Source: a virus. From it: DNA of 28,687 nt. The position numbers and the translations under genes are program-made. The stretch covers positions 1 through 28,687 of IMG/VR virus record IMGVR_UViG_3300023176_004461. One strand, written 5' to 3'. Shown here one piece after another: positions 2,003 to 18,886 of this stretch (position 1 is its first letter; each line of letters starts with the position of its first letter). The notes under the pieces are model-generated. The model saw only the letters and a list, made by a program, of their open reading frames with translations. It made no database searches and was not told the origin of the DNA.

Positions 2003-3766
2003 TTATACTATATTAATTGTGCCGCTCATATTAGCATCGGCAGTGCTTTGATAAAACAAGGTTGCAGGCGCACTCATGGGAACCCTAAAAGTTAATACAG
2101 AAGGTGCTGCGGCACCATTGTTAGTTACTCCAGTATTATAAGCAGTGCCGCCAAGTCCAGAAGAAGATTGAATTCTAAGTGGACTAGCAGTCGTTTGATT
2201 ATCAAAATAATAAGTTTCACCTCTTCTCAAATATAAAGTAGGATCGTCTTCTGCTGAAGGAAACCATACATTTTCGGGATCTGTAAAACTATAATGATTG
2301 GTACCATTGGCGGTAAGTATAAATTTGTGAGCAAATCCGCCGGGCGATTGAAGCGTCTTATCAGGATTGTTATAGATGAGACCACTCGCATCTCCAAAAT
2401 GCCCTTGGAATCCGCCAGTGCCAGCAGTCAAACTTAAATAATAAACTTCGGGTTGTGCCGGTGAAGCAGACACCGATCCGGCAAGCATTGAACGTGCAGC
2501 AATGGCGCTGTCTGCTCTAACGTCAGTTAAAAGATAGCCGCTTCCTGAAAACATATTTGATGAAAGCGTTCCACCATAAACTCCATCCGGAGTAAAAGTA
2601 ACATCTGGGGTTAAAGAAATTTCATCTGAGTCTGGTCTAAACTCAGCAGTTTGCCAGCCGCGTTTTCTAAACATGGCATAGTGTGTGCCTGTACCCTGAA
2701 TAAGCTCTTTAGCTAAAGTTTTTTCAGCTATTGACGCAGTACCGTATAGGTATAATGTTGAAGTGTAATTGCCTAAAGGATCGTAGTTCAAACCACTAAA
2801 AAGCGAATTTGTTTGGGGATTGTACAATAAACCATCGCCATCGACGTTGGCGCTGTCATAATCAGTTGCATTGCCGTTCACGTCTATAGAATTATTCGGA
2901 AACATTAAAAGATTAAAATTTTCAGAAACTTCTGCTTGCGTCGGTAACAAAGTATCAGCTGTAAAAGAAGTAGCGTTAACGTTGGTGAGACCACTACCAT
3001 CACCAACAAAAGCAGCAGAAGTAAGTGTGCCACTGCCTGGGTTATATGTAAAAGCAGCGTTAGTATTTACGCTATCAATGCCGTTTTGAAGAGGGCTAAA
3101 CAATACAAAATAATCGGGAGTATTCTCTACCGGAGACTCGACTTGCGCAGAAGCTACTTGTTGTTCTCTTGACCAATCAGACCATAACGAATGATTTGCG
3201 CTGTCTGCAACTAAAGCGGCTAAAGCTAACGTAGCTAGATCTGAAACTTGAGAATGACGCGCACTATCAACGTTATCGAGATATCTACCATCGCCTTCAA
3301 AATAATTTGCCTTTAAAACACCACCATTGTATAAATTGTATTGCAAACCAGTATTGGTAAAAGAACTATCACAACCAAAAGCAGTATCTCTCATAACAAC
3401 ATATAAATTTTGTTCTCCTGCATTTAAACTGGTTAAAGAAATTTTCGAATTAAAAGTTTCAGCACATTGTGAATTTATTGCGTTAATATATTGACTAAGA
3501 TCAGAAAAATCTGTTATAGTTTCTCCGCCCACTGTAAGAGAATTACGAGCTTCAATATTTTCACCAGAAATATCACCCGTAACATTAAGATCGCCGGTCA
3601 CTTCACTACCCGTTGGAGTATCATCAATATTTTGATTAGCTAAATCCCGAATAGATTGTAGGGTTGCTCTCTTGGTAGTTAAAATATCTACATCATTGAC
3701 AATAATTTCATCCGCTAAATCGGGGTCTGTCAATAATAATAATTCTGAAATTTTTACTCCGGCCAT
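2003..3766 (-). CDS. Fibre-type virion structural protein with degenerate cupredoxin-like C-terminal domain
   Basis: 587 residues. The N-terminus (MAGVKISELLLLTDPDLADE) is the short attachment-like segment common at the start of T4-like marine phage fibre proteins. Residues ~57-80 carry a GDLNVTGDISG segment of the fibre type. Four loosely similar beta modules follow around residues 140, 238, 313 and 462, each with G-L-x-Y-N-P (or near) then L-x-(A/S)-x-x-F, sometimes ending in GDG. Residues ~480-587 resemble the plastocyanin-like domain ending many marine phage structural proteins: LYLRRGETYYFDN, SPLRIQSSSG, a tract running YNTGVTNNG, VPMSAPATLFYQ, then STADANM. In that family the ligands are His in HPLRI and Cys, His and Met in YQC-x2-H-x2-M. 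Here they read S528, S574, D577 and M580, so copper binding is unlikely. A canonical late promoter and an AGAG ribosome site precede the ATG. It is probably a tail fibre or baseplate decoration protein. Confidence 0.85.
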   Translation of the reverse strand: MAGVKISELLLLTDPDLADEIIVNDVDILTTKRATLQSIRDLANQNIDDTPTGSEVTGDLNVTGDISGENIEARNSLTVGGETITDFSDLSQYINAINSQCAETFNSKISLTSLNAGEQNLYVVMRDTAFGCDSSFTNTGLQYNLYNGGVLKANYFEGDGRYLDNVDSARHSQVSDLATLALAALVADSANHSLWSDWSREQQVASAQVESPVENTPDYFVLFSPLQNGIDSVNTNAAFTYNPGSGTLTSAAFVGDGSGLTNVNATSFTADTLLPTQAEVSENFNLLMFPNNSIDVNGNATDYDSANVDGDGLLYNPQTNSLFSGLNYDPLGNYTSTLYLYGTASIAEKTLAKELIQGTGTHYAMFRKRGWQTAEFRPDSDEISLTPDVTFTPDGVYGGTLSSNMFSGSGYLLTDVRADSAIAARSMLAGSVSASPAQPEVYYLSLTAGTGGFQGHFGDASGLIYNNPDKTLQSPGGFAHKFILTANGTNHYSFTDPENVWFPSAEDDPTLYLRRGETYYFDNQTTASPLRIQSSSGLGGTAYNTGVTNNGAAAPSVLTFRVPMSAPATLFYQSTADANMSGTINIV

Positions 3767-3791
3767 GGTAATGTCTCTTTATTAGTCCTAT

Positions 3792-3799
3792 TATTTATA
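3792..3799 (-). promoter_or_regulatory. T4-type late promoter TATAAATA
   Basis: The minus strand reads TATAAATA, the exact T4 late promoter consensus, in the 37-base gap between gp15 and the 587-residue gene. It ends 25 bases before the ATG at 3766, leaving room for a short leader with an AGAG ribosome site. In T4 this box is recognised by the phage sigma-like gp55 with the sliding clamp. It should drive the last two genes of the window. Confidence 0.85.
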
Positions 3800-3803
3800 C
3801 TGG

Positions 3804-5090
3804 TTATGTAACATTTATTGTTACGGTTGCTACTTCTGAAGTTCCTGCAGAAGGTGTTGCTCGATATATAAACGTATCTGTTCCTGTGAAGCTTGCGTTA
3901 GGAGTATATCTAAACTGTCCTAACGCAGCATCAAGAACTTCAACTGTTCCGTTAGAAGGATCTCCACCAATTGCGACACTATAAACTACCGGTGGAGCCA
4001 AAGTATCATTGGCTGTTACCAAGAATGTGACCGGCGTGTCTACGGTTGTACTGACAGTGTCATCAATCACGTCTTCAACACCCGTCACATCGACATTTAC
4101 ATTGTAAGTGTACGATCCAAATCCGCCATTTAAAGACATGGTAAAGGCATCTGCTCCACTGTAATCTGGATCCGGAGTGTAGGTGTATGTCCCTTTTGCT
4201 TCGATCATACCATTTATATTTGTTAAGACTTGATCTAGCGTGAATGAAACCGAACCGTGTGTAGGTTCTGTCCCAACAGAAATCGATGAGGGATTAGAAG
4301 GAAGGTTGACAATATCAAAAGATTGTGTTATAGAATTATCTTCTAACAATACTGGATTCAATACTGTATTAGGATCTAACACAAACGCGCTGTCTGCACA
4401 TACTTTAGAAAACAATTCATCTTCGTTGTTGAGATTTAAAAACTCAACACAAGCTTTGGTAATGATGCTCGATGAGGTTGCTACGCTCTTATACAAACTG
4501 AGTCTCATATCAAAATCTAGAGAATAGATAATTGTTCTTCGATTTTCAAGCGGTGCTTCGTAGTCATCAGAAAAAGAAATACCCGTCATAGTAATCGGAG
4601 TATCTTCTACAATGTCAAAATCGTCCAGCGGTTTTACCGACACAGTATAGTGTGGTGTAAAGTAAGGTAGAATTTGTTCTACGATTTGTAGAGCATCATC
4701 TTGCGACTTAGCATAGATGCTCAGCTGAAAACTAATGTTATACGGAACTGGAGTATATACTTTGCTGCCAGTACCATCATAACTAGCTGGATATTGAACA
4801 CAAGAATTTGTTTTCGGCAACTGCCTTGAAGGATCATACGCCATCGCCAAAATTTCAAATGACATACGCGGAAGTTTTACGGCAATCTGACGTTCTACAT
4901 CTTCTCCGTTTGCCATGGCGTCAAGACGAGCCAGAAAATCTCTTTTAGGAGCATACGACAACGGGACACGCTGAGCAGATAGCTGATTGCCCTGCGAGTC
5001 TTTGCGGACGATATTAATCTCATTGAACAGAGATCCAAAAACCGCAACGGCCTTTCGTATTCTTTGATGGTAAAAATGATCACCAAACAT
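3804..5090 (-). CDS. 15: Tail sheath stabiliser / tail terminator gp15 with two extra Ig-like domains
   Basis: 428 residues. Residues 1-~225 match the gp15 family of T4-like cyanophages and relatives: MFGDHFYHQRIRKAVAVFGS, PLSYAPKRDFLARLDAMANG, RQIAVKLPRMSFEI, YTPVPYNISFQLSIYAKSQD, VEQILPYFTPHY and FSDDYEAPLENRRTIIYSLD. In T4, gp15 forms the ring that caps the finished tail and joins it to the neck. T4 gp15 is 272 residues, so this protein is about 150 residues longer. The extra C-terminus (~245-428) contains two beta-sandwich repeats of the tandem Ig/cadherin-like type, marked by GTYTYTPDPDYSGADAF and GQFRYTPNASFTGTDTF, with DTPVTFLVTANDT opening the second. The start codon overlaps the gp14 stop by one base (TAATG), so translation is probably coupled. 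Identity of the N-terminal part is near certain; the role of the extension (surface binding) is inferred. Confidence 0.95.
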   Translation of the reverse strand: MFGDHFYHQRIRKAVAVFGSLFNEINIVRKDSQGNQLSAQRVPLSYAPKRDFLARLDAMANGEDVERQIAVKLPRMSFEILAMAYDPSRQLPKTNSCVQYPASYDGTGSKVYTPVPYNISFQLSIYAKSQDDALQIVEQILPYFTPHYTVSVKPLDDFDIVEDTPITMTGISFSDDYEAPLENRRTIIYSLDFDMRLSLYKSVATSSSIITKACVEFLNLNNEDELFSKVCADSAFVLDPNTVLNPVLLEDNSITQSFDIVNLPSNPSSISVGTEPTHGSVSFTLDQVLTNINGMIEAKGTYTYTPDPDYSGADAFTMSLNGGFGSYTYNVNVDVTGVEDVIDDTVSTTVDTPVTFLVTANDTLAPPVVYSVAIGGDPSNGTVEVLDAALGQFRYTPNASFTGTDTFIYRATPSAGTSEVATVTINVT

Positions 5091-5977
5091 TATGGATCTC
5101 CAAACGGATTAGATTCACTAAAGTCTATAAAGTCAATAGTTCCGCCTTGTGATGTTGTATTAAACGCATCGTTCATTGCGCCATCCTGTAAATCTTCACC
5201 AACTAAAATAGGTATCCCCGTTGCGCCCGATTCTAATCCTGTCACAGGATCGGTGGTGTTAAACTCTGGCAAGCCAGTATATCCCGCAGCAGCGCCAACG
5301 TGAGCCACGTACAGCTTCATTGCAGCGGAATCGGAAAGATCTATGTTAACAATTTCTCCTTCTACGCTACCCTGACTAATCTTCTCATTGAATTCAAAAC
5401 TGCCATTAATAGAATCAAAAGTTAAAATAGTTTGATAGGCGTGAGCAGCTTCGACAATGTCAATAGCTTCAACACCCGTATCAAAATCTTCATCATTGTA
5501 TTCAAACAATTCACAACGAATTCTAAATGTCGGAAGATCTTTTAGCTGGTAGAATGGATTTTCATCCTCAACTTTTGTTACTTCAAAAATAGATCCCGAC
5601 AAAGGTAGATGAATCAAATCGCCTTCTCTAGGACGATACACCGGATTAGTTTCTGAGCTTTCGAACACAGCAACTTGATTCAACCACCTTCTACGCGAAA
5701 CAACAAAAGTTGCCGCGTCTCGTATTTCTACACCGAACTTGGTAAACAGATCACCTTCACCATCAAATCCTTCGGTATTTTCAATATACATTTCGATTTT
5801 ATATGCATCATCAAATCTAGACACGTTGTCATCATCAAAAAAAGTATCTCGATTTACAATTTCACGAGGAATGTAATAAACATCTTGACCATAGATCTTC
5901 AAAGATTCTATGATCAAATCCTCATAGAGATCCTGTTCGGATTTTCTGCCTTGTGAAAAATAAAGATTAGTGGCCAT
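5090..5977 (-). CDS. 14: Neck protein gp14
   Basis: 295 residues. The sequence is characteristic of gp14 of T4-like marine phages: LYEDLIIESLKIYGQDVYYI, RFDDAYKIEMYIENTEGFDG, GDLFTKFGVEIRDAATFVVS, RPREGDLIHLPLSGSIFEV, FYQLKDLPTFRIRCELFEY and NDEDFDTGVEAID. In T4, gp13 and gp14 form the neck that seals the filled head and accepts the tail. The C-terminal ~110 residues are Gly/Asp/Thr-rich and end in FGDP; T4 gp14 is 256 residues, so this one is slightly longer. It starts 3 bases after the gp13 stop, with GGGG six bases before the ATG as ribosome site. Its TAA stop overlaps the gp15 ATG by one base. It is transcribed with gp13 and gp15 from the promoter upstream of gp13. Confidence 0.95.
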   Translation of the reverse strand: MATNLYFSQGRKSEQDLYEDLIIESLKIYGQDVYYIPREIVNRDTFFDDDNVSRFDDAYKIEMYIENTEGFDGEGDLFTKFGVEIRDAATFVVSRRRWLNQVAVFESSETNPVYRPREGDLIHLPLSGSIFEVTKVEDENPFYQLKDLPTFRIRCELFEYNDEDFDTGVEAIDIVEAAHAYQTILTFDSINGSFEFNEKISQGSVEGEIVNIDLSDSAAMKLYVAHVGAAAGYTGLPEFNTTDPVTGLESGATGIPILVGEDLQDGAMNDAFNTTSQGGTIDFIDFSESNPFGDP

Positions 5978-5980
5978 AAA

Positions 5981-6742
5981 TTACCCCATAAAAAAGTCTA
6001 TTGGGAATTCATTTTCTAATCTCAGTTTCTCCTCTAGTTCGGTAAGTTGTGCAGTGGCTTCCTCAAAATATTGCCTACCATTTAATTGTACACCGCCCGG
6101 TAAGGTCATACCTTCGAACTTCATCATGTTCGCGCCCCACTGTTGTTTAATTAGAGCGGTAGCATAATTCTTAACAAACTTGTCGTTCCAAACTTGAGTA
6201 AATGTATCTGGGTCTACAAGCGTAAGAACCTCCATTACCACATATTCACCTACGTCAAGATTACCCATAACATTGGGTGCCCAATCGCCAAAAATATAAA
6301 GACGATCTTGATGTCGAGAATAGGTCACGCGAGGCTGGCCTTCTAAAATATTGTCTAGATACTCTAGATATTGTTGCATTTGATAATAGTACGACATACC
6401 TCCAGCAAAATTCATAAAGTCGCCCATACTGTTAAGCATCATTTGATACTTAATGTCAAACATATTTACGCTGGAAAAAGTTCGATTAAAAGGAAACACT
6501 TTGGTAACATATAGAACGTCTGAAGAAATAGGAATCCATTCATTGTCTATATCAGTTTGTGTTATCTGATGTTTAATGTATGTACGATAGGCTGCATCTG
6601 CATGATATTCCTGATATAATTGCAGAGTATCGTCAACCTTATCTTCAATCTGATCATCATCTACATTAATTTCAAGTACAGGAGATCCTAGTCTTCGCAG
6701 ACAATAGTCGATTAATTCTTGTCTAGTTGTAGGCTGCGCCAT
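5981..6742 (-). CDS. 13: Neck protein gp13 (head completion)
   Basis: 253 residues. The opening MAQPTTRQELIDYCLRRLGS followed by PVLEINVDDDQIEDKVDDTL and QLYQEYH is the signature start of gp13 in T4-like cyanophages and relatives. Later segments EGQPRVTYSRHQDRLYIFGD, KNYATALIKQQWGANMMKFE and LPGGVQLNG also fit. With gp14 it forms the head-tail connector neck. T4 gp13 is 309 residues; shorter forms are usual in the marine group. It is the first gene of the 13-14-15 unit, preceded by a CATAAATA late promoter and a clear GGAG ribosome site 9 bases before the ATG. The T4 order 13-14-15 is kept, which supports all three assignments. Confidence 0.95.
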   Translation of the reverse strand: MAQPTTRQELIDYCLRRLGSPVLEINVDDDQIEDKVDDTLQLYQEYHADAAYRTYIKHQITQTDIDNEWIPISSDVLYVTKVFPFNRTFSSVNMFDIKYQMMLNSMGDFMNFAGGMSYYYQMQQYLEYLDNILEGQPRVTYSRHQDRLYIFGDWAPNVMGNLDVGEYVVMEVLTLVDPDTFTQVWNDKFVKNYATALIKQQWGANMMKFEGMTLPGGVQLNGRQYFEEATAQLTELEEKLRLENEFPIDFFMG

Positions 6743-6764: not shown

Positions 6765-6772
6765 TATTTATG
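6765..6772 (-). promoter_or_regulatory. T4-type late promoter CATAAATA
   Basis: The minus strand reads CATAAATA, one base off the T4 late consensus, 22 bases before the gp13 ATG. The TAA inside the box is the stop codon of the upstream protease gene (GCA TAA ATA), so coding end and promoter share bases. Spacing to the start codon agrees with the three other late boxes of the window (24-27 bases). Confidence 0.75.
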
Positions 6773-8618
6773 CAGTTTCTCTAAAGTTCCTTAGAGTTTT
6801 TGTTCGAGGATATACTTTACCCGAAGATTTTCTAGGGCCGTATATTTCTTTGGTGTCTATTCGACCTTCTGCAGGACGCAAATTCTTTACGTACATAATT
6901 GCACGAGGCGTTTCATTTTGATGAAAAGAATAATTATCTTGATTAGTTGCGGGAACTTGATTTCCTGGCCACACTTTACCGTCATCCCCTATTTCATTAT
7001 GGGTGTCTCGATCTCTTGACATATTTTGAATTAAATATTCTTTAAGTTGAGCGGGAGAAAAATCTGGAAATCTTTCTAAAACACAAGCTGCTATTCCTGC
7101 TACGTTAGGGCAAGCTGCCGAAGTTCCACCAAAAATACCAAAATAAAATGAACTGTTCCTAGGATCCTGAGTTTGAACTCCAGTTGAAGAATTTACCGCA
7201 GCAACACAGCCGTTCGAAGCCGCATAAAGATCTATTCCTCGTCCTCTCGAACTGTAATAGTTAGGCATTTCACCCCTTCCCGTGGGCGCACTCTGATACC
7301 CTTCGCGAGTTCCACTAAGCGCACCAACAAGCACGCCCTCATCTGGTAAAAACCCTCTCGACTTGTGTCTCACAGTACCCCTTGCATTATTTAAAAAATA
7401 ACTATTAGTGTAAAAAGAAGATGATAATTTTTCACAAACCGCATTTTGATTTCCACCAGCGGCAAATACATGTATACCGTCTGCTATAGCATCTGCAACG
7501 TCCGGGCGAATTGTGTCGTTTTCTATTGTAATAACAGCAAAGCCATTCGGTGAGTTACCTGAAATCCAAGTTTCTGCGACAATCTCTGCATTTTCCATTT
7601 GTGCATGAGATAATGACCCTGACGTATTGCTGGAATTTCCATAACCGAATCCATCTCGTTGTGCATAATAAGGCCAAGAAGAAGTTCCTTCATTTAAATA
7701 ATAAATGTATCCATATGATGCAGTAACAACCGTTGGATTTTTTCTGCCCGTAGCAGGGTTTACAGTTTTACTATTATGAAACGCTCTAATATAATCCCAC
7801 AGTGTTAAATAAAGAGAACCATTCGCGTCTATATTTCCTGCCAATATTTGCCAAGAATCAAAAACACTAATGCTGTAAATATTAGCTTTAAATGCAGAAC
7901 CATTTGTATTTCCAGCAGCAAGAGAAGCGCACGAACATCCGTGATTTATTTCCGTGTCAGTAGATGTATTTCCAGTACTGTAAGGAGTATAACTATAATT
8001 TTGAATTAAAAAATTAAACTGTGCAGAAAGACCAGGATTATCCCCCTGTACAGTTGGCGTATATTGGTGCCAATTAATTTCCTGTACTCTAGATCCTCCA
8101 GTTCCGTCTACGTTAACGGCAAATTCCGGATGAGTGGGTATAACGCTGGCATAATCTACTACAATTATATCAACGTTTTCTCCTGTTTCGGTGACTGAAA
8201 TTGTGTCATTGATAAACAACTGCGTGCCCGAGCCACCGTTGGGAATTTGAGGATACCAATTATTGATATCCGAAGAATAATCGTTATACGGTCTTCTTAC
8301 ACGTAGAAGATTCCAACTTACAGCAGCGCTGTTGGGAGGACTATATAAATTTTTATCAAATCTTCCTGTCCTATCAAATGCTGACAATTGTATATCGTAT
8401 TTAATGTTTTTAACAACAGATTCTACACGATCATCATTTCTTAATTCTTCTGCTTCTTCTGAGGTTAAATTATAAACAGTACTTCTAGAAATTGGTTTAC
8501 GTAGACTACAATCAATTGTTCTATTTGGAATGTAAAGAGCACCTCCTTCGGTTTCCATATCATCATAGAAATCAACAAGGTCTTCTCTATTTTTTAGTGT
8601 GACAATATATTCTTCCAT
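6768..8618 (-). CDS. Subtilisin-like serine protease (S8 family) with N-terminal propeptide-like domain
   Basis: 616 residues. The catalytic triad is visible: Asp155 in VDIIVVDYASVIPTHPEF, His226 in NHGCSCASLAAGN, and Ser500 in GGTSAACPNVAGIAA. The oxyanion Asn390 is in HVFAAGGNQN. Residues 1-~78 (EEYIVTLKN, then LTSEEAEELRNDDRVESVVK) look like an I9-type inhibitor propeptide, so the protein may self-process. No signal peptide or membrane segment is seen, so it should act in the host cytoplasm or within the virion. Odd points: Asp155 is followed by YAS instead of the usual TG(I/V), and His226 by GCSC instead of GTHV. All key residues remain, so activity is plausible. The ATG overlaps the stop of the 814-residue gene by one base, placing the protease in a structural operon just before gp13. 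Likely targets are virion or host proteins, but nothing in the sequence decides which. Confidence 0.93.
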   Translation of the reverse strand: MEEYIVTLKNREDLVDFYDDMETEGGALYIPNRTIDCSLRKPISRSTVYNLTSEEAEELRNDDRVESVVKNIKYDIQLSAFDRTGRFDKNLYSPPNSAAVSWNLLRVRRPYNDYSSDINNWYPQIPNGGSGTQLFINDTISVTETGENVDIIVVDYASVIPTHPEFAVNVDGTGGSRVQEINWHQYTPTVQGDNPGLSAQFNFLIQNYSYTPYSTGNTSTDTEINHGCSCASLAAGNTNGSAFKANIYSISVFDSWQILAGNIDANGSLYLTLWDYIRAFHNSKTVNPATGRKNPTVVTASYGYIYYLNEGTSSWPYYAQRDGFGYGNSSNTSGSLSHAQMENAEIVAETWISGNSPNGFAVITIENDTIRPDVADAIADGIHVFAAGGNQNAVCEKLSSSFYTNSYFLNNARGTVRHKSRGFLPDEGVLVGALSGTREGYQSAPTGRGEMPNYYSSRGRGIDLYAASNGCVAAVNSSTGVQTQDPRNSSFYFGIFGGTSAACPNVAGIAACVLERFPDFSPAQLKEYLIQNMSRDRDTHNEIGDDGKVWPGNQVPATNQDNYSFHQNETPRAIMYVKNLRPAEGRIDTKEIYGPRKSSGKVYPRTKTLRNFRETA

Positions 8619-11062
8619 TATGATTCTAATTGTAAAACTGTAAACGTTAAAGTTAATGGATTTTGAATAGATCCGCTTAAGTTTGTAACTTTCAACGGCA
8701 CATCTTGACCGGTATCACACCAACCAATAACTCCTGGTGATACTTTAATAGTTTGTGGGAAAGGGCCCGTCGCAATAAATTCTGCCACAACTCCAGCATC
8801 GGGTGCCGGATCTTGTTCTATTGTTCGACTTGCGTCTGCAGTTCGACTAGCAGTATCAGTATACATTCTAATCCAACAAGAAGCAGTAGCCTTCACTTTA
8901 AAAAGCGCATAAGAAGAATACATCGCTACGGAAGTATCTACCGTAGCATTGTTTGCCATGTTAGTAATGCTTTTAACGATGCCTGCATCTCTAGTAGGTA
9001 GAGTTCCGCTGGCTCCAGGAATTGTTACAGTAACATCATTTCCTGCATTAGTAGCAGTCACACCAGTTCCGGTGAATGTAAATGATGTAACTCCTGCGGT
9101 AAGTTGCGTAGATTCGTCTGTAACGGCGATAGCAGTACCAGTACCACCAACACCAGACCCATCTATAGTAACCTGATTTGTTGCGCCAACTGTTACCGAA
9201 ATTCCACCCGAACCGGTGAAATTAATTTGATCTGTTGTATTGGTTGCAGCTTCAGTATTTGATCCATCAGAAATAAAACTATAAGCGTTTTGATTAGGAT
9301 CACCAGAACCACCACCAGATCCAAAAACATCGTCCGCTGCTTCCCATTGTTGATTAGCATTAGACCATTTTAAAACCTGACCGTCAGATGGGTTAGCATT
9401 CACATCACCCAATTCATTTAGTCTATCGGGTACAAAAGGAGGCGTATATGTGAAAGCACCTGTGATATCACTGTAAACCAAATTGCCCACATTACCGCTA
9501 GGCGACAAAGTTACTGCAGCTAAATCGCTTAACGCAATTCCACCACCGCCACCACCGCCACCGGTTTGATCTGGAGCATTAACCCAATTAACGCCATCAT
9601 ATTTAATTACTTGACCAGGAACCAAAGAATTTAATTGTACATCTACTAAATCATTTAAATATAATTGTGCTGCAGTTGGACCACCTAATTGTGGTTGCCC
9701 TAAATTTCCAGCACTTACACCGTTATTACCCCAAAGCAAAGCACCGTTTTCATCGTATACAACAAACGATCTACCTTCGCTATCTAGAAGCCTTCCACCA
9801 TTTCCCGTTTCATCAGAACTTAATTGAAAGTCTCCTTCAACAAAAGTAGAATCAAAATTTGAAATTCCACTAGCGGATATGCTAACTAATTCTAGTCTGT
9901 TAACGTCCGGCCTATATGTCAAATCTAAATCAAATTCAGCACTATCTCGACCAGCAACACCACCATTCGCTATTGAAAAAATAGGATAAAAAATTGCATC
10001 ACTATCAGTAGGCGCTAATTCAATAGTATCAGTTTGCGCTAAAGCAGCTAAGTCAACATCTCCTTCCATGACAAGACCATCGGTTTGTCTTCGGAAAAGA
10101 ATTCTAGTGTTAGCTACTTTTTCAGGTACATCTGTTAAATAAACATTAGCATTAAAATCAGAGCGTGCACTAAATCTACCGCCGGTGAAATCAGCACTAT
10201 CATTAACATCTAAAGTAGTGTTGATTGTAGTAGTAGCTGGAGTGATGCTTGCGGTAATGCCTGTGTTAAGAGCATCTACAAAAACAACCTGATCATTTTG
10301 AATTTGCAATGATCCGGCACTTTTTTGAATAGTTTGTGTTGCGCCGTTGTTAAAAATAAGGTTAGAATTTTCTGTTAAATCGCCAGTTACTAAAACTGCG
10401 TCTTCAAAAATTGAAGCATTAGTAACCGTAATACCACGATTAAAATCCCATCGATCTGTTCCAGTATGATAAAGAAGTTCTACACCAGCCCCATAAACGA
10501 TAATACCAGAACTATCCCATTGAGATGGTATCACAGCATCTTGAGCAACAACAATATTTCTATCTTCTACTGTCAGAATTTGAGTGTTGAGTATTGTTTG
10601 ATCGCCTTCAACTTGCAAATTCCCTTGGACGGTAAGATCACGACCAATTAAAGCATCTGTTGTTGTTGTGAGGCCCCAAACGGTAATAGCTGTCGGAGTC
10701 GAATCATAACCAACACCTCTAGACGGTTGCGTTACCGTGAATAATGTATCATTGTCTAGAGTAGGAAAAAATGACCAGCGAACACTATCGTACCCGGTGA
10801 TATTTGGATCGCCGTTTAAAGTAAGAACGTACTGTGGATCTGTGTTTTGCGGTAATGATTTAAATTGTAATCCGCTAAGATCTGGTTTAGTTGTAAACTT
10901 GCGCGTTCCATCAACATCAGATATGAATAAAGACCCGTCAGACTCGGGCAGACCCGGATTGGGTTCCGCCTGGTCTAGAGTTAAAAATTCATAACGATCA
11001 GAATCTAACTCGCTAAATGGGCGAGTACTTACTGATCCTGATACTGATTTAATTTGCGTCAT
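8618..11062 (-). CDS. Fibre-type virion structural protein, 814 residues
   Basis: The protein is rich in Gly, Asn, Asp and Thr, with no enzyme motif. Around residues 138-200 it has the fibre module GRDLTVQGNLQVEGDQT, then ILTVEDRNIVVAQDA and a W-x-F-x-x-GI end, also present in the neighbouring 396-residue protein. A segment of the LNELGDVNANPSDGQVLKWS type (residue ~546) is the common phage fibre repeat 'L-x-D-V-x-(x)n-P-x-x-G-Q-V-L-K'. A related copy, LNDLVDVQLNSLVPGQVIKY, lies about 75 residues earlier. An eight-glycine linker (bases ~9541-9562) separates the halves. The last ~100 residues form a beta-rich tip containing W-x-R-M-Y and ending TLTFTVLQLES, similar to the end of other marine phage structural proteins. 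The gene starts 6 bases after the 134-residue gene and is coupled to the protease by TAATG. A role as tail fibre or baseplate spike is inferred from composition and context. Confidence 0.85.
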   Translation of the reverse strand: MTQIKSVSGSVSTRPFSELDSDRYEFLTLDQAEPNPGLPESDGSLFISDVDGTRKFTTKPDLSGLQFKSLPQNTDPQYVLTLNGDPNITGYDSVRWSFFPTLDNDTLFTVTQPSRGVGYDSTPTAITVWGLTTTTDALIGRDLTVQGNLQVEGDQTILNTQILTVEDRNIVVAQDAVIPSQWDSSGIIVYGAGVELLYHTGTDRWDFNRGITVTNASIFEDAVLVTGDLTENSNLIFNNGATQTIQKSAGSLQIQNDQVVFVDALNTGITASITPATTTINTTLDVNDSADFTGGRFSARSDFNANVYLTDVPEKVANTRILFRRQTDGLVMEGDVDLAALAQTDTIELAPTDSDAIFYPIFSIANGGVAGRDSAEFDLDLTYRPDVNRLELVSISASGISNFDSTFVEGDFQLSSDETGNGGRLLDSEGRSFVVYDENGALLWGNNGVSAGNLGQPQLGGPTAAQLYLNDLVDVQLNSLVPGQVIKYDGVNWVNAPDQTGGGGGGGGIALSDLAAVTLSPSGNVGNLVYSDITGAFTYTPPFVPDRLNELGDVNANPSDGQVLKWSNANQQWEAADDVFGSGGGSGDPNQNAYSFISDGSNTEAATNTTDQINFTGSGGISVTVGATNQVTIDGSGVGGTGTAIAVTDESTQLTAGVTSFTFTGTGVTATNAGNDVTVTIPGASGTLPTRDAGIVKSITNMANNATVDTSVAMYSSYALFKVKATASCWIRMYTDTASRTADASRTIEQDPAPDAGVVAEFIATGPFPQTIKVSPGVIGWCDTGQDVPLKVTNLSGSIQNPLTLTFTVLQLES

Positions 11063-11476: not shown

Positions 11477-14400
11477 TTAGTTGCCCCCTTCGATTGCTAA
11501 TATGAAAGGTGTTAATACTGCGAACAATGAACGATCAAAGGTGATACCGGTGATAGTTCCTTCCTCTCTGTTAATAGTTAAGTTTTCACCAATTCTAAAG
11601 TCTCCTAATTCGTCGGTAGCAGTAAAATAAACCAGACCAAAATTAGGTGTAGCCGCTTCCGCCGAATCAAAAAGAACTTCGTTTTCTTTCTTAGGAATAC
11701 CGCCGTTTTGCGGAATAGCGGTAAACATATTTGTGCCTGATCCAACATATTCAAACGTGTGACCGGATGCTGTAATCAATGAACGCTGATGGAAACTGGC
11801 GTTATCCCCCGCCGACATATTTACATTAAGCGGTGGCGCGATTGTTACATTATAAGACCCAGTCTCTTCCAAAATTGAATAATAGAAAAACGCTGCACCA
11901 AACTCTGTGTTAGCGTCAGAGACATTCGTTCTTCGTTGTCCTGCTCCCACCAACACATAATCGCCAGAGCCGCCTACAGACACTGCGTGACCACCAGAAC
12001 CATACTTATCATTATCGCCCTGAGTAGCTACGTTTGTAGGCGTTTGAGGCTCAAGAACGGTTACTCGATTCCAATCACTTCGCGCTCTTTCTAATATCGA
12101 CACTTCATTTTCTATAGCATTGTTTGTTGGAGTATTACCTACAGCAACAAGCAAGCCTTCTATGTCCATATCCACATTGCTACCAAAGCCAAAGCCTGCA
12201 AATTTATCATAAGGTGCTTCAATAATATCTTGTGTGATCCAGTTGCCTTCTTCAAATACGAATAGCTCAGCAACGCCCACATCTTCTACAAAAATTTCTA
12301 CATCGACAGTAGTTTCTCCGGCAAAGGCCGCACCCGAAACTGTTAAAGTTGTTGCAGTTCTGCCAGTAATTGTTCTTAAACCATCGTTGCTCGCAGAACC
12401 TCTTATTTGAATTTCTGTATCAGCAGGAAAATCTATAGTAAAATCAGCATCAGGGTCTGTGGTAGTAATAGTATTACCACTAAAAACAACATTGTCTAAT
12501 TTCTGTTTTCTTATGATTTCTGTGGGAGGACTGTTATCAGCATCAGTAAATGTATTAGTATAATAACCTCTAGGCGTAGTTGAATTACCAAATACAAAAT
12601 GAGATGTCTCTGAATTCAAATCTAATTCACCCAAACGAGTCCCTTCAAAGTTAGACTTGGGAACAATAATTTGTGCAAGGATATACTGATTGTCGATGTT
12701 CCTTTGATAATAGAAGACTTTATTAACCTGCCCCTGCCAATGAACCAACAGGTCAGTACCGTCTGGGTTTGTGGTTGGGACAGGAAGATCTACTGCAGCT
12801 GTGGCACCATCAGGACAAACGATTCTTTGAATCTGTGTCCAAGTGCTAGAAGCTGTGTTAGGACGAGTAAATGCATACACCACGCCTTGAGCGCCTTGTC
12901 CATCGTCTTCATAGTCTGAAACGAAAAGAGTAAGTGCATCTTGGCTCAAAGCTATTCGGCTACCGAACTTGCGATCTCTATTTTGAACCCGCCCAATTTC
13001 TATAAATGCATCTTGCGTCCATGTTTCGTTGGTTCGACGGAATGCATACACAACCCCGTTCAGGCGACTAGAAGATTGAGCATCTACTTGTTGATGACCT
13101 GGTGCTGAGATAACACAGTAACTGCCGTCAGCAGAAATTGCCACACGCTCACCGAAATCATCTGTAGGGTTGATTGAACCAAAATCCGGAGTCGGTGCAA
13201 GCTGCGCTTGATATCCCCAAACAGGCACACCACCAACAAAATCTTTAACATACACTTCTGCGCGACCACCGCTGCCAGCACCACCATCTCTTTCAGTGAC
13301 AACGGCATACAAATCGTTTTCTGAAATTACAACTGAATGACCGTACAGACTATTCAACGTGGTACCATTAATAGCGGTTTGTTCGGTTTCAGCAGTGTTT
13401 CCAGTAATACCCCAATCCTGAGTAATTTCATCAGAAACATCAACTACAGTGTAATAATAATTGTCGTTGTCAAATTTAATTGCATCATTGTAGTTTGGTT
13501 TTTTGAAATCGCCAACATTTAAAGTATAGTCTGCAGCGTCCTGAGTAATGATAGAATTAATTCGAATTTCATCGTCGTTCAGCAAATAGTTTGCGTGGAG
13601 AGTTCCGTTATACAAAGACGGCGAACCACCTGTGGCCACCAAGCCCCGCTCACCAAACGATGAGTTTGAGTTGGTTAATGAACATTGACCACCGCTCGTA
13701 GCAAGTACCGACGTGGTTGTTGATACTGTAAACAAAGATACTAACTGAGCGTAACCACGATTCAACAGATGCACACCAATGCCTCCAGCGTTGAACTGAG
13801 TGAATGCGTCAAGTACCATTGAACGCAAACCAGACACTTTACTACCATCAATCTTGAGACCAATACCGCTTGAAGTCAATGACGTACAGTTCTGAACGTA
13901 TGGAGACTGCGTAATAAAAGGACCTGTAGTCGTATCGTTACGCGGATCAAACGCCAAACAAGCCGCGCCGTTCTGATGATCGCGGAACGTAATCTCTTTG
14001 ATGTACACACCATTGTCTGCCCAGAAAATATCTGAATCGACATTCTTAGGACGAATAGTTGTTGAACGTAACGCATCACCAATGATAGCAGTCTTGGGCG
14101 GCAACGCAATCGGATTATTAACTACGTAATCGCCAGACTTCAAGTAAATTGTGCTGTCAGTACCCTGATTACTAGCTACAGCAGACGAAGAACGAATGAT
14201 CGTCAAACGTTGTGGTGAATCTACATCAAAAGAAACATGAACATTATACAGATCGTTAAACACCACTTTATATCCTAAGTCAATTAGATTAGGAAATGTT
14301 TGTACTCCATAATTAAAATCAAACGCGCTCGCCGTTGCTCCAACCTGAGTTCTCAGTCCTGTAGGATAATTGTATTGATAAATTTGATTTCTCGTTACAG

Positions 14401-17400
14401 GATCATTAAAGAAGGTGCCTAATTGATAAGTTCCTGCCGACGATTGTGTTACGGCTTCGATAATTATATCGAGTAAAGAAAGCGCTTTGCCTTGAACGTC
14501 GGTATCTAATGACGCTAACCAATAACTCAATTCGTTCTTCATTCTTGTATAAGCGGTGATTGTAGCATTCAGTTCATTCTGACCCAAAAGATCTACATAG
14601 CCGTTATTAAAAATAGAGAAGTATGCTCTTTGAGCGATAGACGTTGCACTATTACCGCCGTACTTAATATCATAAGTAAGTGCGTCCAAAACAAATTCCA
14701 TATCGCGCCTACACGTTGCTTGATCAAACTGGTATGCTGGGAAAATTTGATTAGCATATCCAACGGTTTGTTCAGTAAGCGTAGCTCTTTGTCCTGAAAT
14801 AGTAAGAGAGTCACCAGTAAAAACTAAAGCAGTATTAGGTATCGACAACGGATCACTCGCATTAATAGATGCTATGATAACATCAATGAGACCGTTGATA
14901 CGAGTTTGTTCTGTTGCAGTTGTTACGTAGTCAGCGATGATTGTTTTGAGTTCAGCATACGCAGCTGCAGTAGCGACAGTTTCACCATCACCTAATTGTT
15001 TAGTCCATACGTCGGCTTCACCATCTAGGTTCTGATCTGGTCCATACAAATCAATTCCGGACCAATAAGACCTTGCAGTAGTTTCTGTTCCGTAATCCAC
15101 ATCAAACAAAATGTCATGTGAAAGTGCATCAACAATATACCCAAGGTCACGAACACAAGCGTCTTGATCATAAGCCAAAGTGTCATAGTTCTCTTCAATA
15201 AACGCAACAACTCTAGTTTGAATTTTACGACGATTACTTTGAAGTGCAATAGAAGCCTGACGCTTATCGAAATCAATAGCAGCAGATCCCGTAAAGTTTA
15301 TAGGATCGCCATCCGTCTTACCGTAATCAGAAGACTCTTCTAGCAACTCGGTGATTTCTTTGATTCGTGCTGTAACAAAAGTTTGACTATCGGCGGATAG
15401 ACCTAAAGAGTTAATTAGATCTCGCAAATATTCAATCGATTGAATCGTATATGTCAGCTGATCTGATCCGACTTTATTTGCTGCTTGTCTTCGATATGAA
15501 TTACCAGCTGTGATACTATTAAAGTTTGTATTCAGTTCCAGATCTAAAGCCACAGCATCAATAATTAATTGCGTATCGCGTGCGCATTTCTCGTCATCAA
15601 ATCCACCTACGGGATTTGAATCATTCACAAAATCAATTGTATCGTTTTGAATAGCCAGCGTGTTGTCGGTGATAGCATCAAAATTAGTAGTTGTCAAGCC
15701 GCCTAATTCAATTTCAACTTCCGCAACCACAACATCGTCATCGTCTGCTTGCAGAGGTGCGATAATGATATCGAGAAGATTGCTAAGAACGGTTTGCTCA
15801 GGAGCGGTTGTTACATACGTAGCAACGATAGTTTTGAGTTGTTCGTAAGAAGCAATCGTTGCTGCGATCTCGTCTGCATCGTTACCTAACTTATTGACAG
15901 TTCCTGAAAAGTATGCTAAAGCATTTTTTCTTGTGCCCGTGTTACCACCATACTTGACATCGTGTGTCAAAGCGTCTATAATATATCCAACGTCTCTTCG
16001 ACATTTAGCTGCATCATAATTAGGCAATGTAAAATTAGCAGCAATGTAATTATCAACATCATCCTGAATATTAGTTCTGTTGTTCTGAAGTTCCGTCGCA
16101 GCAGTGATCCGATCCGCAGTTTGATACGTAGAACCAGCTGTGGTTGGATAATTTAGTGAAGGATAAACTGGTGTGCCACTAATATAACTAACTACCGTAG
16201 CAATCGAGTTAGTAATCTGAGTATTCACCGCACCACCAAAACCTAATGTTAATAACTGATCTCGTGCAAATTCAATTGCATCAATGGTCACCTGATTTTG
16301 ATCTGACAACACATATGCAGAGTTCGTTCTCTGATAAGCATTACCAGCAGTGTGAGCATTATAATCAGTTCCTAAAATTAAATCTCGTTTTACCGCATCT
16401 AAGATAAGCCCAACATCTCTAAAACATAAAGCTTGATCGTACGCCGGATTGAAAAATCTATCATTAGCATAGACAATCGTCTGATCCTGAATAGAAAGCT
16501 TAGCTGTAAAAATAGCATTAGCGTCAGCTTCTGTGGCAGAACCCGTAATAAAAGGTTCTACTTCCGCTGCTAAATTATCAAGGTTGCCATCCGTTATAAC
16601 TTGTCGTATAATATCAATAAGTACTGCAATATCGTCTTGTTCTTGTTGCGTAGTAACAAAAGCATTAATAAAAGTTTTTAGTTGTTCATATGCTGCAACA
16701 GTTGCTGCTTGTTCGCCAGCACCTAATTGATCTACGCCCTTAGAGAAATAAGCACGAGCATTAGTTCTAGTTCCTGTGTTACCACCATACTTAATGTCAT
16801 GAGCTAAAGCGTCTACGATGTATAAAACATCTCGCGCACACTTATCTTGATCATATGTTAAATCAATATAATTATCATTGATCCACGTAGTTAATTGATC
16901 GGATAAAGTTTGTCGATTTGTTGTCAATGCCACCTGTGCATTTTCTCTGGCCGCAGTCTGATATGCTACTCCAACTGTAGATGGATATGACGGAATTTCG
17001 TATTCTGTAACTCGTCCTTCTAGAACATCGGTGATTCTATCAAACAGAGTGTCAATAGTCGCATCAGAAACAACAACTCCCGCCAAAGCTTTTACTTTTT
17101 TACGTACAAAATTAACCGCTGCAATTGTTATTTCTTTTTGATCGCTAAGGACATAAGCAGAGTTTGCTCGTTTGTATGCAAATCCGGCTGTAATAGTGCT
17201 GTAGTTTGTATCTAAGGCGAGATCTCTAGCTACAGCATCTAAAATTAATCCTACATCGCGATAGCACAAATCCTGATCGAAATTAGGATACTGTGGAATA
17301 AATGTTTCATTAACGTAATCTACTACTTGTTGCTGAATGTCTTGGCGTTCCGCTGCTATAGCATCAAATTCTGTGGTGTCAAGTCCTCCAAAATCTGGTA

Positions 17401-18886
17401 GATCCGCTTGAGTATTATCTACAATAACTCCGGTGTCAATAGTAACTCGAATGCCTTCAATTAAATCTGTAGCTCTTGTTTGTTCTGGTGCTGTCAAAAC
17501 ATAACTATTAATAATAGTTTTTAGTTCTTCGTAAGCCGCTAAAGTAGCCGCCTTTTCACCGGTGCCAGTATTAAGATCTGTATTTGTTCCGCCAATAACA
17601 GCGCCCACATAATAAGCTCTACCAGCAATAGACGATGCAAAATTTCCACCGTACTTAATGTCATGAGATAAAGCATCTACAATATAGCCTACGTCTTCTT
17701 CACACTTAGCAACATCATAAACAAACCCCGTTGTAAAGGGAGCGATGTTTCCAACAATCTGAGCGTTGATCCACGCAGTCAGATCTGATATAATGGTTGC
17801 TCTGCTGGCTTGTAAATTTGTTGTTGCAGTTGCTCGATCTGCCGTCTGGTATAACGACTGGACATCAGTAGGATAGGTAGGTATTGAGTATGCCGTAGTA
17901 TCACCACTAATATATTGAACAATAGTTCCAAAGAGTGTGTCTATCGTAGAAGTTGAAGTTATACCCGCTATAGCCTTTACAAGCGTTTTAGCATAATTAA
18001 CCGCTGCAATTGTCGCAGTGTTTTGATCGCTCAACACGTAAGCAGAAGCATTGCGCAAATAAGAATTACCAGCGGTTTCCGTATTGTGATTTGTTCCTAA
18101 AATTAAATCTGTGGCTACCGCATCTAAGATGTATCCAATATCCCTCGAACAAGTTCCCGCATCGTAGCTAATTGGATAGTTTGCTTGCGTAGCAATGTAA
18201 GATAAAATAGCGTCTTGTATAGCCGCTTTGTTTTGTTGTATAATAGTCGCTGCAGCGTTAGCATCTGTTTGAGCTTCAACCGGCGGATCGGTAAAATAAA
18301 GATCGTCTGCTTCGCCATCATAAAAGATGTCAATAATTTCGCTAAACCCTTTAACGATTCTATCGTTGGCAGTTTGATTAGCCACCACCAAAGGATTGGA
18401 AATCATTCCTACTCGTTCTTCGTTAATGCTACGACGAGTTTGATATTTTTGTTCGCCAGTAACTTTAGCCGCGTTGCCTCGCTTATAAGAAAGACCCGCT
18501 GTAACAGTGTTAAAGTTAGTGTCTAAAATCATATCATAACGGACTGCATCCATAATCAAATGCAAGTCACGTTCGCACGTTACTTCATCAAATTTAAATC
18601 CTTGACGAGCAGTAACTACACCCACAGCAGAGTCGAGTGTTTTAAAAGCGTTCATCAAAGAACGCCCGTCATTACCGTACTGTCCTGATTTGGAAACGTA
18701 ATAGACGTTATCTACTTCTTCTGAACCGATAGACTCAATGGTAATCTCACCATCAGCCTGACGTTTAATATAAGCCTTACCGTCATGGGTGTTGATGGCA
18801 ATTTCGCCAAAGTCGATTTCATTTACCGTAGGCGCTCGACCCGGTATATCGCTTCTTGGTAGTAATATTTTTTTACGGTCTGCCAT
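11477..18886 (-). CDS. Giant multidomain virion structural protein: Cys-repeat, beta-helix and FG-GAP propeller regions
   Basis: 2469 residues. Residues 1-~90 are the marine T4-like fibre start (ILLPRSDIPGRAPTVNEIDF, GEIAINTHDGKAYIKR, VYYVSKSG). Residues ~100-1430 carry ten repeats opening C-x-R/E-D and continuing (L/I)-x-DA-(V/L)-x-x-D, in two alternating types: one with TN...TAG.(S/A)Y.R and one with KYGGN...(A/S)Y(F/Y/W). Residues ~1560-1780 look like a right-handed beta-helix: STIYLKSGDYVVNNPIALPP, KTAIIGDALRSTTIRPKN, then NC and SGIGLKIDGS turns. Residues ~1840-2340 form seven FG-GAP-like blades (LYGHSVVIS, DFGERVAIS, KFGSRIALS, a weak fourth, a fifth TRLGELDLN, GFGSNVDMD, YGSGGHAVSV) with GVVYAF-type strands. 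About 85 residues are inserted between blades five and six. A final ~130-residue beta region follows. Preceded by a late promoter. It is probably a long tail fibre or spike; no catalytic residues are claimed. Confidence 0.9.
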   Translation of the reverse strand: MADRKKILLPRSDIPGRAPTVNEIDFGEIAINTHDGKAYIKRQADGEITIESIGSEEVDNVYYVSKSGQYGNDGRSLMNAFKTLDSAVGVVTARQGFKFDEVTCERDLHLIMDAVRYDMILDTNFNTVTAGLSYKRGNAAKVTGEQKYQTRRSINEERVGMISNPLVVANQTANDRIVKGFSEIIDIFYDGEADDLYFTDPPVEAQTDANAAATIIQQNKAAIQDAILSYIATQANYPISYDAGTCSRDIGYILDAVATDLILGTNHNTETAGNSYLRNASAYVLSDQNTATIAAVNYAKTLVKAIAGITSTSTIDTLFGTIVQYISGDTTAYSIPTYPTDVQSLYQTADRATATTNLQASRATIISDLTAWINAQIVGNIAPFTTGFVYDVAKCEEDVGYIVDALSHDIKYGGNFASSIAGRAYYVGAVIGGTNTDLNTGTGEKAATLAAYEELKTIINSYVLTAPEQTRATDLIEGIRVTIDTGVIVDNTQADLPDFGGLDTTEFDAIAAERQDIQQQVVDYVNETFIPQYPNFDQDLCYRDVGLILDAVARDLALDTNYSTITAGFAYKRANSAYVLSDQKEITIAAVNFVRKKVKALAGVVVSDATIDTLFDRITDVLEGRVTEYEIPSYPSTVGVAYQTAARENAQVALTTNRQTLSDQLTTWINDNYIDLTYDQDKCARDVLYIVDALAHDIKYGGNTGTRTNARAYFSKGVDQLGAGEQAATVAAYEQLKTFINAFVTTQQEQDDIAVLIDIIRQVITDGNLDNLAAEVEPFITGSATEADANAIFTAKLSIQDQTIVYANDRFFNPAYDQALCFRDVGLILDAVKRDLILGTDYNAHTAGNAYQRTNSAYVLSDQNQVTIDAIEFARDQLLTLGFGGAVNTQITNSIATVVSYISGTPVYPSLNYPTTAGSTYQTADRITAATELQNNRTNIQDDVDNYIAANFTLPNYDAAKCRRDVGYIIDALTHDVKYGGNTGTRKNALAYFSGTVNKLGNDADEIAATIASYEQLKTIVATYVTTAPEQTVLSNLLDIIIAPLQADDDDVVVAEVEIELGGLTTTNFDAITDNTLAIQNDTIDFVNDSNPVGGFDDEKCARDTQLIIDAVALDLELNTNFNSITAGNSYRRQAANKVGSDQLTYTIQSIEYLRDLINSLGLSADSQTFVTARIKEITELLEESSDYGKTDGDPINFTGSAAIDFDKRQASIALQSNRRKIQTRVVAFIEENYDTLAYDQDACVRDLGYIVDALSHDILFDVDYGTETTARSYWSGIDLYGPDQNLDGEADVWTKQLGDGETVATAAAYAELKTIIADYVTTATEQTRINGLIDVIIASINASDPLSIPNTALVFTGDSLTISGQRATLTEQTVGYANQIFPAYQFDQATCRRDMEFVLDALTYDIKYGGNSATSIAQRAYFSIFNNGYVDLLGQNELNATITAYTRMKNELSYWLASLDTDVQGKALSLLDIIIEAVTQSSAGTYQLGTFFNDPVTRNQIYQYNYPTGLRTQVGATASAFDFNYGVQTFPNLIDLGYKVVFNDLYNVHVSFDVDSPQRLTIIRSSSAVASNQGTDSTIYLKSGDYVVNNPIALPPKTAIIGDALRSTTIRPKNVDSDIFWADNGVYIKEITFRDHQNGAACLAFDPRNDTTTGPFITQSPYVQNCTSLTSSGIGLKIDGSKVSGLRSMVLDAFTQFNAGGIGVHLLNRGYAQLVSLFTVSTTTSVLATSGGQCSLTNSNSSFGERGLVATGGSPSLYNGTLHANYLLNDDEIRINSIITQDAADYTLNVGDFKKPNYNDAIKFDNDNYYYTVVDVSDEITQDWGITGNTAETEQTAINGTTLNSLYGHSVVISENDLYAVVTERDGGAGSGGRAEVYVKDFVGGVPVWGYQAQLAPTPDFGSINPTDDFGERVAISADGSYCVISAPGHQQVDAQSSSRLNGVVYAFRRTNETWTQDAFIEIGRVQNRDRKFGSRIALSQDALTLFVSDYEDDGQGAQGVVYAFTRPNTASSTWTQIQRIVCPDGATAAVDLPVPTTNPDGTDLLVHWQGQVNKVFYYQRNIDNQYILAQIIVPKSNFEGTRLGELDLNSETSHFVFGNSTTPRGYYTNTFTDADNSPPTEIIRKQKLDNVVFSGNTITTTDPDADFTIDFPADTEIQIRGSASNDGLRTITGRTATTLTVSGAAFAGETTVDVEIFVEDVGVAELFVFEEGNWITQDIIEAPYDKFAGFGFGSNVDMDIEGLLVAVGNTPTNNAIENEVSILERARSDWNRVTVLEPQTPTNVATQGDNDKYGSGGHAVSVGGSGDYVLVGAGQRRTNVSDANTEFGAAFFYYSILEETGSYNVTIAPPLNVNMSAGDNASFHQRSLITASGHTFEYVGSGTNMFTAIPQNGGIPKKENEVLFDSAEAATPNFGLVYFTATDELGDFRIGENLTINREEGTITGITFDRSLFAVLTPFILAIEGGN
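14605..18580 (-). repeat. Ten C-x-R-D repeats inside the 2469-residue protein
   Basis: The repeats open CERDLHLIMDAV, CSRDIGYILDAV, CEEDVGYIVDAL, CYRDVGLILDAV, CARDVLYIVDAL, CFRDVGLILDAV, CRRDVGYIIDAL, CARDTQLIIDAV, CVRDLGYIVDAL and CRRDMEFVLDAL. Types follow the order A, A, B, A, B, A, B, A, B, B. Type A copies usually continue with Y.LSDQ-like helices, and type B with an AAT.AAY..LKT helix and an (A/T).EQ motif. The repeats look helical. The arrangement suggests growth by duplication of an A-B pair of about 250-300 residues. The nucleotide copies have diverged, so the repeat is clear mainly at protein level. Confidence 0.9.

Follow-up and report, generated by a model that had tools for sequence, protein, structure and literature searches.

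In a 28,687-nt stretch of DNA from a marine T4-like phage (IMG/VR record IMGVR_UViG_3300023176_004461, positions 1 to 28,687, referred to as the window), a gene encoding a putative subtilisin-type protease directly follows a fibre gene that ends in a conserved domain, here termed domain A. As the same order is found in dozens of relatives, this arrangement suggests a protein-cutting enzyme borne on the viral fibre. Our preferred reading, which we consider somewhat probable, is that the two genes form a fibre-end module in which the subtilase would be docked on domain A, at the outer face of the virion, and would cut host-surface proteins.

The subtilase gene and its product

The subtilase gene, the codons of its catalytic residues and the two flanking genes are located as follows.

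6768..8618, minus strand: subtilase (S8) gene, ATG start, 616 aa (ORF, Pfam and PHROG matches, homologue searches)
7014..8180, minus strand: catalytic S8 domain, residues 147-535 (Pfam and predicted fold)
8403..8618, minus strand: I9-propeptide-like N-terminal domain (N-domain) of the subtilase, residues 1-72 (predicted element order)
8154..8156, minus strand: catalytic Asp155 codon (homologue alignment)
7941..7943, minus strand: catalytic His226 codon (homologue alignment)
7449..7451, minus strand: oxyanion Asn390 codon (homologue alignment)
7119..7121, minus strand: catalytic Ser500 codon (homologue alignment)
8618..11062, minus strand: fibre gene, 814 aa (one-base overlap with the subtilase start)
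8621..9013, minus strand: conserved domain A at the fibre C-terminus, residues 684-814, to which the subtilase is proposed to dock (homologue comparison; predicted beta-sandwich, pLDDT 91)
5981..6742, minus strand: gp13 homologue (neck), context only (phrog_211)

The window protein matched Peptidase_S8 (PF00082) with E=1.6e-18 and 67.4 bits (cut-off 21.8), and the S8 assignment was also obtained from a PDB sequence profile and from the predicted fold. The order Asp-His-Ser and the motif contexts (VVDYA at D155, INHGCSC at H226, AAGGN at N390 and GGTSAAC at S500) line up with the S8 motifs in all homologues. These four residues were invariant across the 34 distinct homologues taken from phage genomes and viral contigs. 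When the set was widened to 93 proteins, including a truncated ORF (L114) and one without a peptidase (L128), the Asp was kept in 90, the His in 92, the Asn in 92 and the Ser in 91. Glu at the position of the catalytic Asp was seen in two divergent members, S-CAM1 (L056:6323-8578) and L099 (1484-3292). Values of dN/dS among related subtilase copies were mostly between 0.05 and 0.35. The AlphaFold model of the subtilase had a pTM of 0.71 and a mean pLDDT of 68, with residues 390-402, the loop after N390, below 50, and the best Foldseek matches to it were all S8 proteins (E 2e-12, TM up to 0.73 of the target). The window gene thus apparently encodes an intact subtilisin-type protease, and the complete set of Asp155, His226, Asn390 and Ser500 described in an earlier sequence-only reading is borne out.

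Other details of that reading stood in part. It had called the N-terminus I9-like: the predicted order of elements, beta-alpha-beta-beta-alpha-beta, is typical of I9 (order only was compared), but PF05922, with 18.1 bits, fell short of its cut-off (21.2) and was seen in 1 of 21 homologues. Of the two motif contexts regarded as unusual, D-Y-A-S does have an extra residue found in the window subtilase alone, whereas HGxSC is common to the nearest relative, L003. In line with that reading, inspection of the N-terminal sequence revealed no hydrophobic export signal. Mean identity among homologues is higher in the N-domain (0.49) than in the catalytic domain (0.41).

The coupling to an 814-residue fibre gene in a T4-like phage was confirmed: the fibre stop and the subtilase start have one base in common (TAATG). 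Downstream of the subtilase lie gp13 (phrog_211), then gp14 (PF11649) and gp15 (PF16724). An assembly error is excluded by two contigs of separate metagenomes on which the CDS recurs base for base. A recent foreign insertion of the gene is without compositional support, its G+C content (0.384) being equal to that of its neighbours.

Three other products of the window have features of their own. The gp15 homologue (3804-5090) has Ig/cadherin-like domains at its C-terminus (two Big_9 stretches, E 5.6e-16) behind a normal sheath-stabiliser domain, and its relative in phage C48C1 (L148) is far shorter. A fibre of 2469 aa (11477-18886) contains many repeats of the YDxxxCxRDxxYIxDAxxxD type and matched cyanophage tail-fibre PHROGs, together with a Phycobilisome family match below cut-off. 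A protein of 2073 aa (22408-28629), for which no PHROG match was found, is made of nine FG-GAP_2 stretches and then a Tyr/Gly-rich repeat tail (YxGxY type).

The fibre-end domain and its partners

Among the homologous loci, the gene upstream of the subtilase varies greatly in length and in its stalk, which is collagen-like in some cases, while its last ~130 residues are conserved. This domain A recurs ahead of the subtilase in nearly all loci. When the full-length fibre was used for searching, only its C-terminal ~135 residues were widely common to other phages, so the pairing does not reflect a general conservation of the fibre. No Pfam family covers domain A, and its PHROGs are of unknown function. 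Cyanophage fibre proteins were its close fold matches; matches to PDB folds were weak (HFTV1 turret, TM 0.45) and no solved sequence relative was found.

A search with domain A only retrieved 80 viral contigs. A subtilase started -1 to +6 nt downstream in 77 of them, an upper figure, the search profile having been built from subtilase-paired copies and some loci being near copies; two others carried a protein of an unrelated family, termed X, and one (L128) another protein. Most complete or long genomes have a single subtilase next to a single domain A. In the relatives PSS2, S-CBS2 and S-CRES1, a weak domain A is not followed by a subtilase. Apparent stand-alone domain A genes of 96-105 aa were an artefact of requiring ATG, as the frames are open over ~370-400 aa with a possible GTG start. 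A second subtilase subgroup (P-SSM2, S-SCSM1 gp144, Sf-CH8, S-T4, AG-345-E02 and AG-345-L05) is preceded by a different conserved fibre end, domain B. The sequence-only reading had held that a position just before gp13 needs an explanation. The gp13 gene is indeed downstream, but this adjacency is not conserved and the fibre-end domain is; domain A, rather than the neighbourhood of gp13, explains the place of the subtilase gene.

Domain A is followed by family X (600-930 aa, without a Pfam family) in S-BM3, Sf-CH1b, S-SCSM1, AG-345-F15 and S-H9-1, the last of which carries both pairs, subtilase and X, in tandem. Members of X directly behind a domain-A fibre include L061:4963-7266, L051:709-2679 and L060:6356-9145, and one member, S-SCSM1 gp140, is recorded as a virion protein. 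A protein search for family X in viral contigs gave no usable match. No similarity was detectable between X and the subtilase N-domain, so that a docking surface common to both would be conjectural, and X as a homologue of that N-domain was not supported by hhalign (probability 0.1%). In a tree of domain A, four X-paired copies, including that of S-H9-1, cluster with starred support, the tree having few columns and leaving the other three X-paired copies unplaced. At L128 (~2110-6168), the protein behind the domain-A fibre combines an N-domain like that of divergent subtilases with Ig-like repeats and has no peptidase. S-BM3, in which the partner downstream of the domain-A fibre is X, also encodes a protein of ~2650 aa annotated as peptidase S8 (S-BM3_00202, L054:1-3418), two small genes upstream of that fibre.

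Distribution and clues to location

Homologues were found by tblastn in 41 phage records, nearly all of T4-like cyanophages, and at 38 IMG/VR loci; the nearest relative found, L003, is 45% identical to the window subtilase. Among 84,980 bacterial and archaeal species genomes there was a single matching contig, binned as Bacteroidetes; since it bears phage scaffold and capsid genes, it is itself phage DNA. The subtilase family therefore looks phage-borne. Several phage records name the homologue subtilisin-like, and that of P-SSM2 is T4-GC 292 with PF00082. The protein family is thus not new, being common in cyanophages and known by annotation, and on this point the sequence-only reading was overstated. 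In the open-access literature we found no description of a fibre-borne subtilase, nor of the domain A pairing, the alternative partner X or the siphovirus-like occurrence. Because a search of 15 related contigs, mostly fragments, revealed no psbA, a cyanobacterial host is not claimed for the window phage.

The pair adjoins scaffold and capsid genes at several of the loci L027-L038 and at L149, and the capsid protein of L034 shares 68% identity with its counterpart in the cyanosiphovirus S-CBS2. Since it is present in tailed phages with different capsids, the subtilase and domain A pair appears, on genomic grounds, to be transferred as a whole, pointing to a common task at the host.

Fusions and one record give further clues to location. 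Homologues are fused to LamG lectin-like domains in L025, L030 and S-SCSM1; in L025:8004-12905 and L030:8004-10598 the LamG is placed between the N-domain and the peptidase. The S-TIM54 homologue is fused to esterase-like and Ig domains, and cupredoxin-like fusions were seen in L121 and, below cut-off, in L042. In the S-SCSM1 record, gp144, which holds the subtilase and falls in the domain B subgroup, not that of domain A, is tagged "(virion protein)". Mass spectrometry identified 45 proteins in S-SCSM1 virions (PMC9602691); we counted 47 such tags in the record, near but not equal to that number. Presence in the virion is thereby supported for one homologue, S-SCSM1 gp144, by the record tag and the published proteome. 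The earlier distinction between the subtilase and the prohead protease gp21 also held, as the window protein gave no match to PF03420 (Peptidase_S77, gp21) and a separate gp21 with this domain is present in 7 genomes that carry the subtilase; in S-SCSM1, gp040 is the tagged prohead protease.

Proposed mode of action and alternatives

We propose that the upstream gene encodes a tail fibre whose variable stalk would end in domain A, a beta-domain of ~130 residues, and that the coupled downstream gene would provide a subtilase, predicted to be catalytically competent, that docks on this domain. The docked enzyme would be carried on the virion exterior and may cut host-surface proteins at adsorption or penetration. 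The I9-like N-domain probably maintains the fold of the enzyme and keeps it inactive inside the producing cell, and may double as a docking part. Candidate interface residues are the conserved region of R41, S44, H48 and Y49 in the N-domain, and W47, D60, R63, D68-P69 and E78 in domain A (numbered in its 131-residue form). We infer the docking, the fibre-end position, the enzymatic activity, the substrate and the roles of the N-domain. The sequence-only reading had offered three options: trimming of fibres, a virion-borne protease acting on host-surface proteins, or a structural relic in the tail. The virion-borne protease fits best, because of the fibre-end domain partner, the surface-type fusions and the S-SCSM1 virion tag; the relic is disfavoured by the near-invariant catalytic residues and the low dN/dS.

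The main rival, which we regard as unlikely, is that the subtilase serves fibre maturation inside the cell, where it would cut the fibre or its C-terminal domain, in the manner of a removable folding chaperone, with no action on the host needed. The coupling to one fibre gene, the conserved domain at the very C-terminus of the fibre and an I9-like N-domain that could time activation are all in keeping with maturation. However, X stands behind domain A in several phages with no adjacent subtilase, so domain A is not present only for cutting, and the LamG, Ig and esterase fusions fit a role at the virion surface better. That the subtilase fold acts as a structural or assembly component, a fibre-end adhesin or chaperone in which proteolysis is incidental, seems more doubtful still. 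The higher conservation of the N-domain, the L128 protein with its similar N-domain and Ig-like repeats in the absence of a peptidase, and the Glu for Asp in two divergent members (S-CAM1 and L099) speak for it, but the D, H, N and S residues and the GTS motif are near-universal and dN/dS is well below 1.

Even less probable, in our judgement, is an intracellular or lysis-stage protease involved in host takeover, release or superinfection exclusion and merely co-expressed with late genes. The lack of an export signal and the neighbourhood of late genes would suit it, but the constant association with a fibre-end domain in both myo- and siphovirus-like contigs, the virion tag on the S-SCSM1 homologue and the surface-type domain fusions all argue against it. 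A subtilase that replaces or helps the gp21 prohead protease would be in line with both being serine proteases of T4-like phages; the two belong to different families, though, and the separate gp21 genes described above contradict the idea and leave it next to no probability.

Beyond the docked protease itself, domain A might be a general fibre-end socket of cyanobacterial myo- and siphoviruses that accepts alternative tips, either an active subtilase or X, and the subtilase form would then be the proteolytic counterpart of a polysaccharide-degrading tailspike; we put this forward tentatively. Phage fibre enzymes are known mostly for sugars. If the proposal is true, many aquatic phages cut host-surface proteins for entry, a gene left hypothetical in many genomes gains a function, and the surface proteins of picocyanobacteria become a candidate barrier or receptor. 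The fixed pair and the existence of cultured phages (S-H38, S-H9-1 and S-CREM1) make the idea directly testable.

The closest known proteins are the subtilisin-like serine proteases of cyanophages (P-SSM2 T4-GC 292, S-H38, S-H9-1 and S-WAM2; phrog_9158), which belong to the same family, have the same catalytic motifs and are likewise coupled to a fibre-type gene upstream, and to which the window subtilase is 26-35% identical; they are annotated by domain only, with no role proposed in the open-access papers covered. The catalytic motifs and predicted fold also resemble those of subtilisin, proteinase K and mirolase (S8). Unlike these, the window subtilase has no visible signal peptide, contains long inserts, has a fibre partner and is phage-encoded. 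T4 gp21 (S77) is likewise a phage serine protease, but is of another family and coexists with the subtilase in the same genomes. In the gp37/gp38-type arrangement of T4, a fibre is associated with an adjacent tip adhesin or chaperone. The likeness lies in a gene directly behind a fibre with a conserved C-terminal end and in an exchangeable partner; unlike the gp38-type partner, the one in the window would be a protease, and its attachment is presumed. Tailspike depolymerases are enzymes that act on host-surface polysaccharide. The subtilase, as proposed, would similarly be a virion-borne enzyme working on the host surface, but it would cut protein and, unlike tailspikes, form a separate chain beside the fibre.
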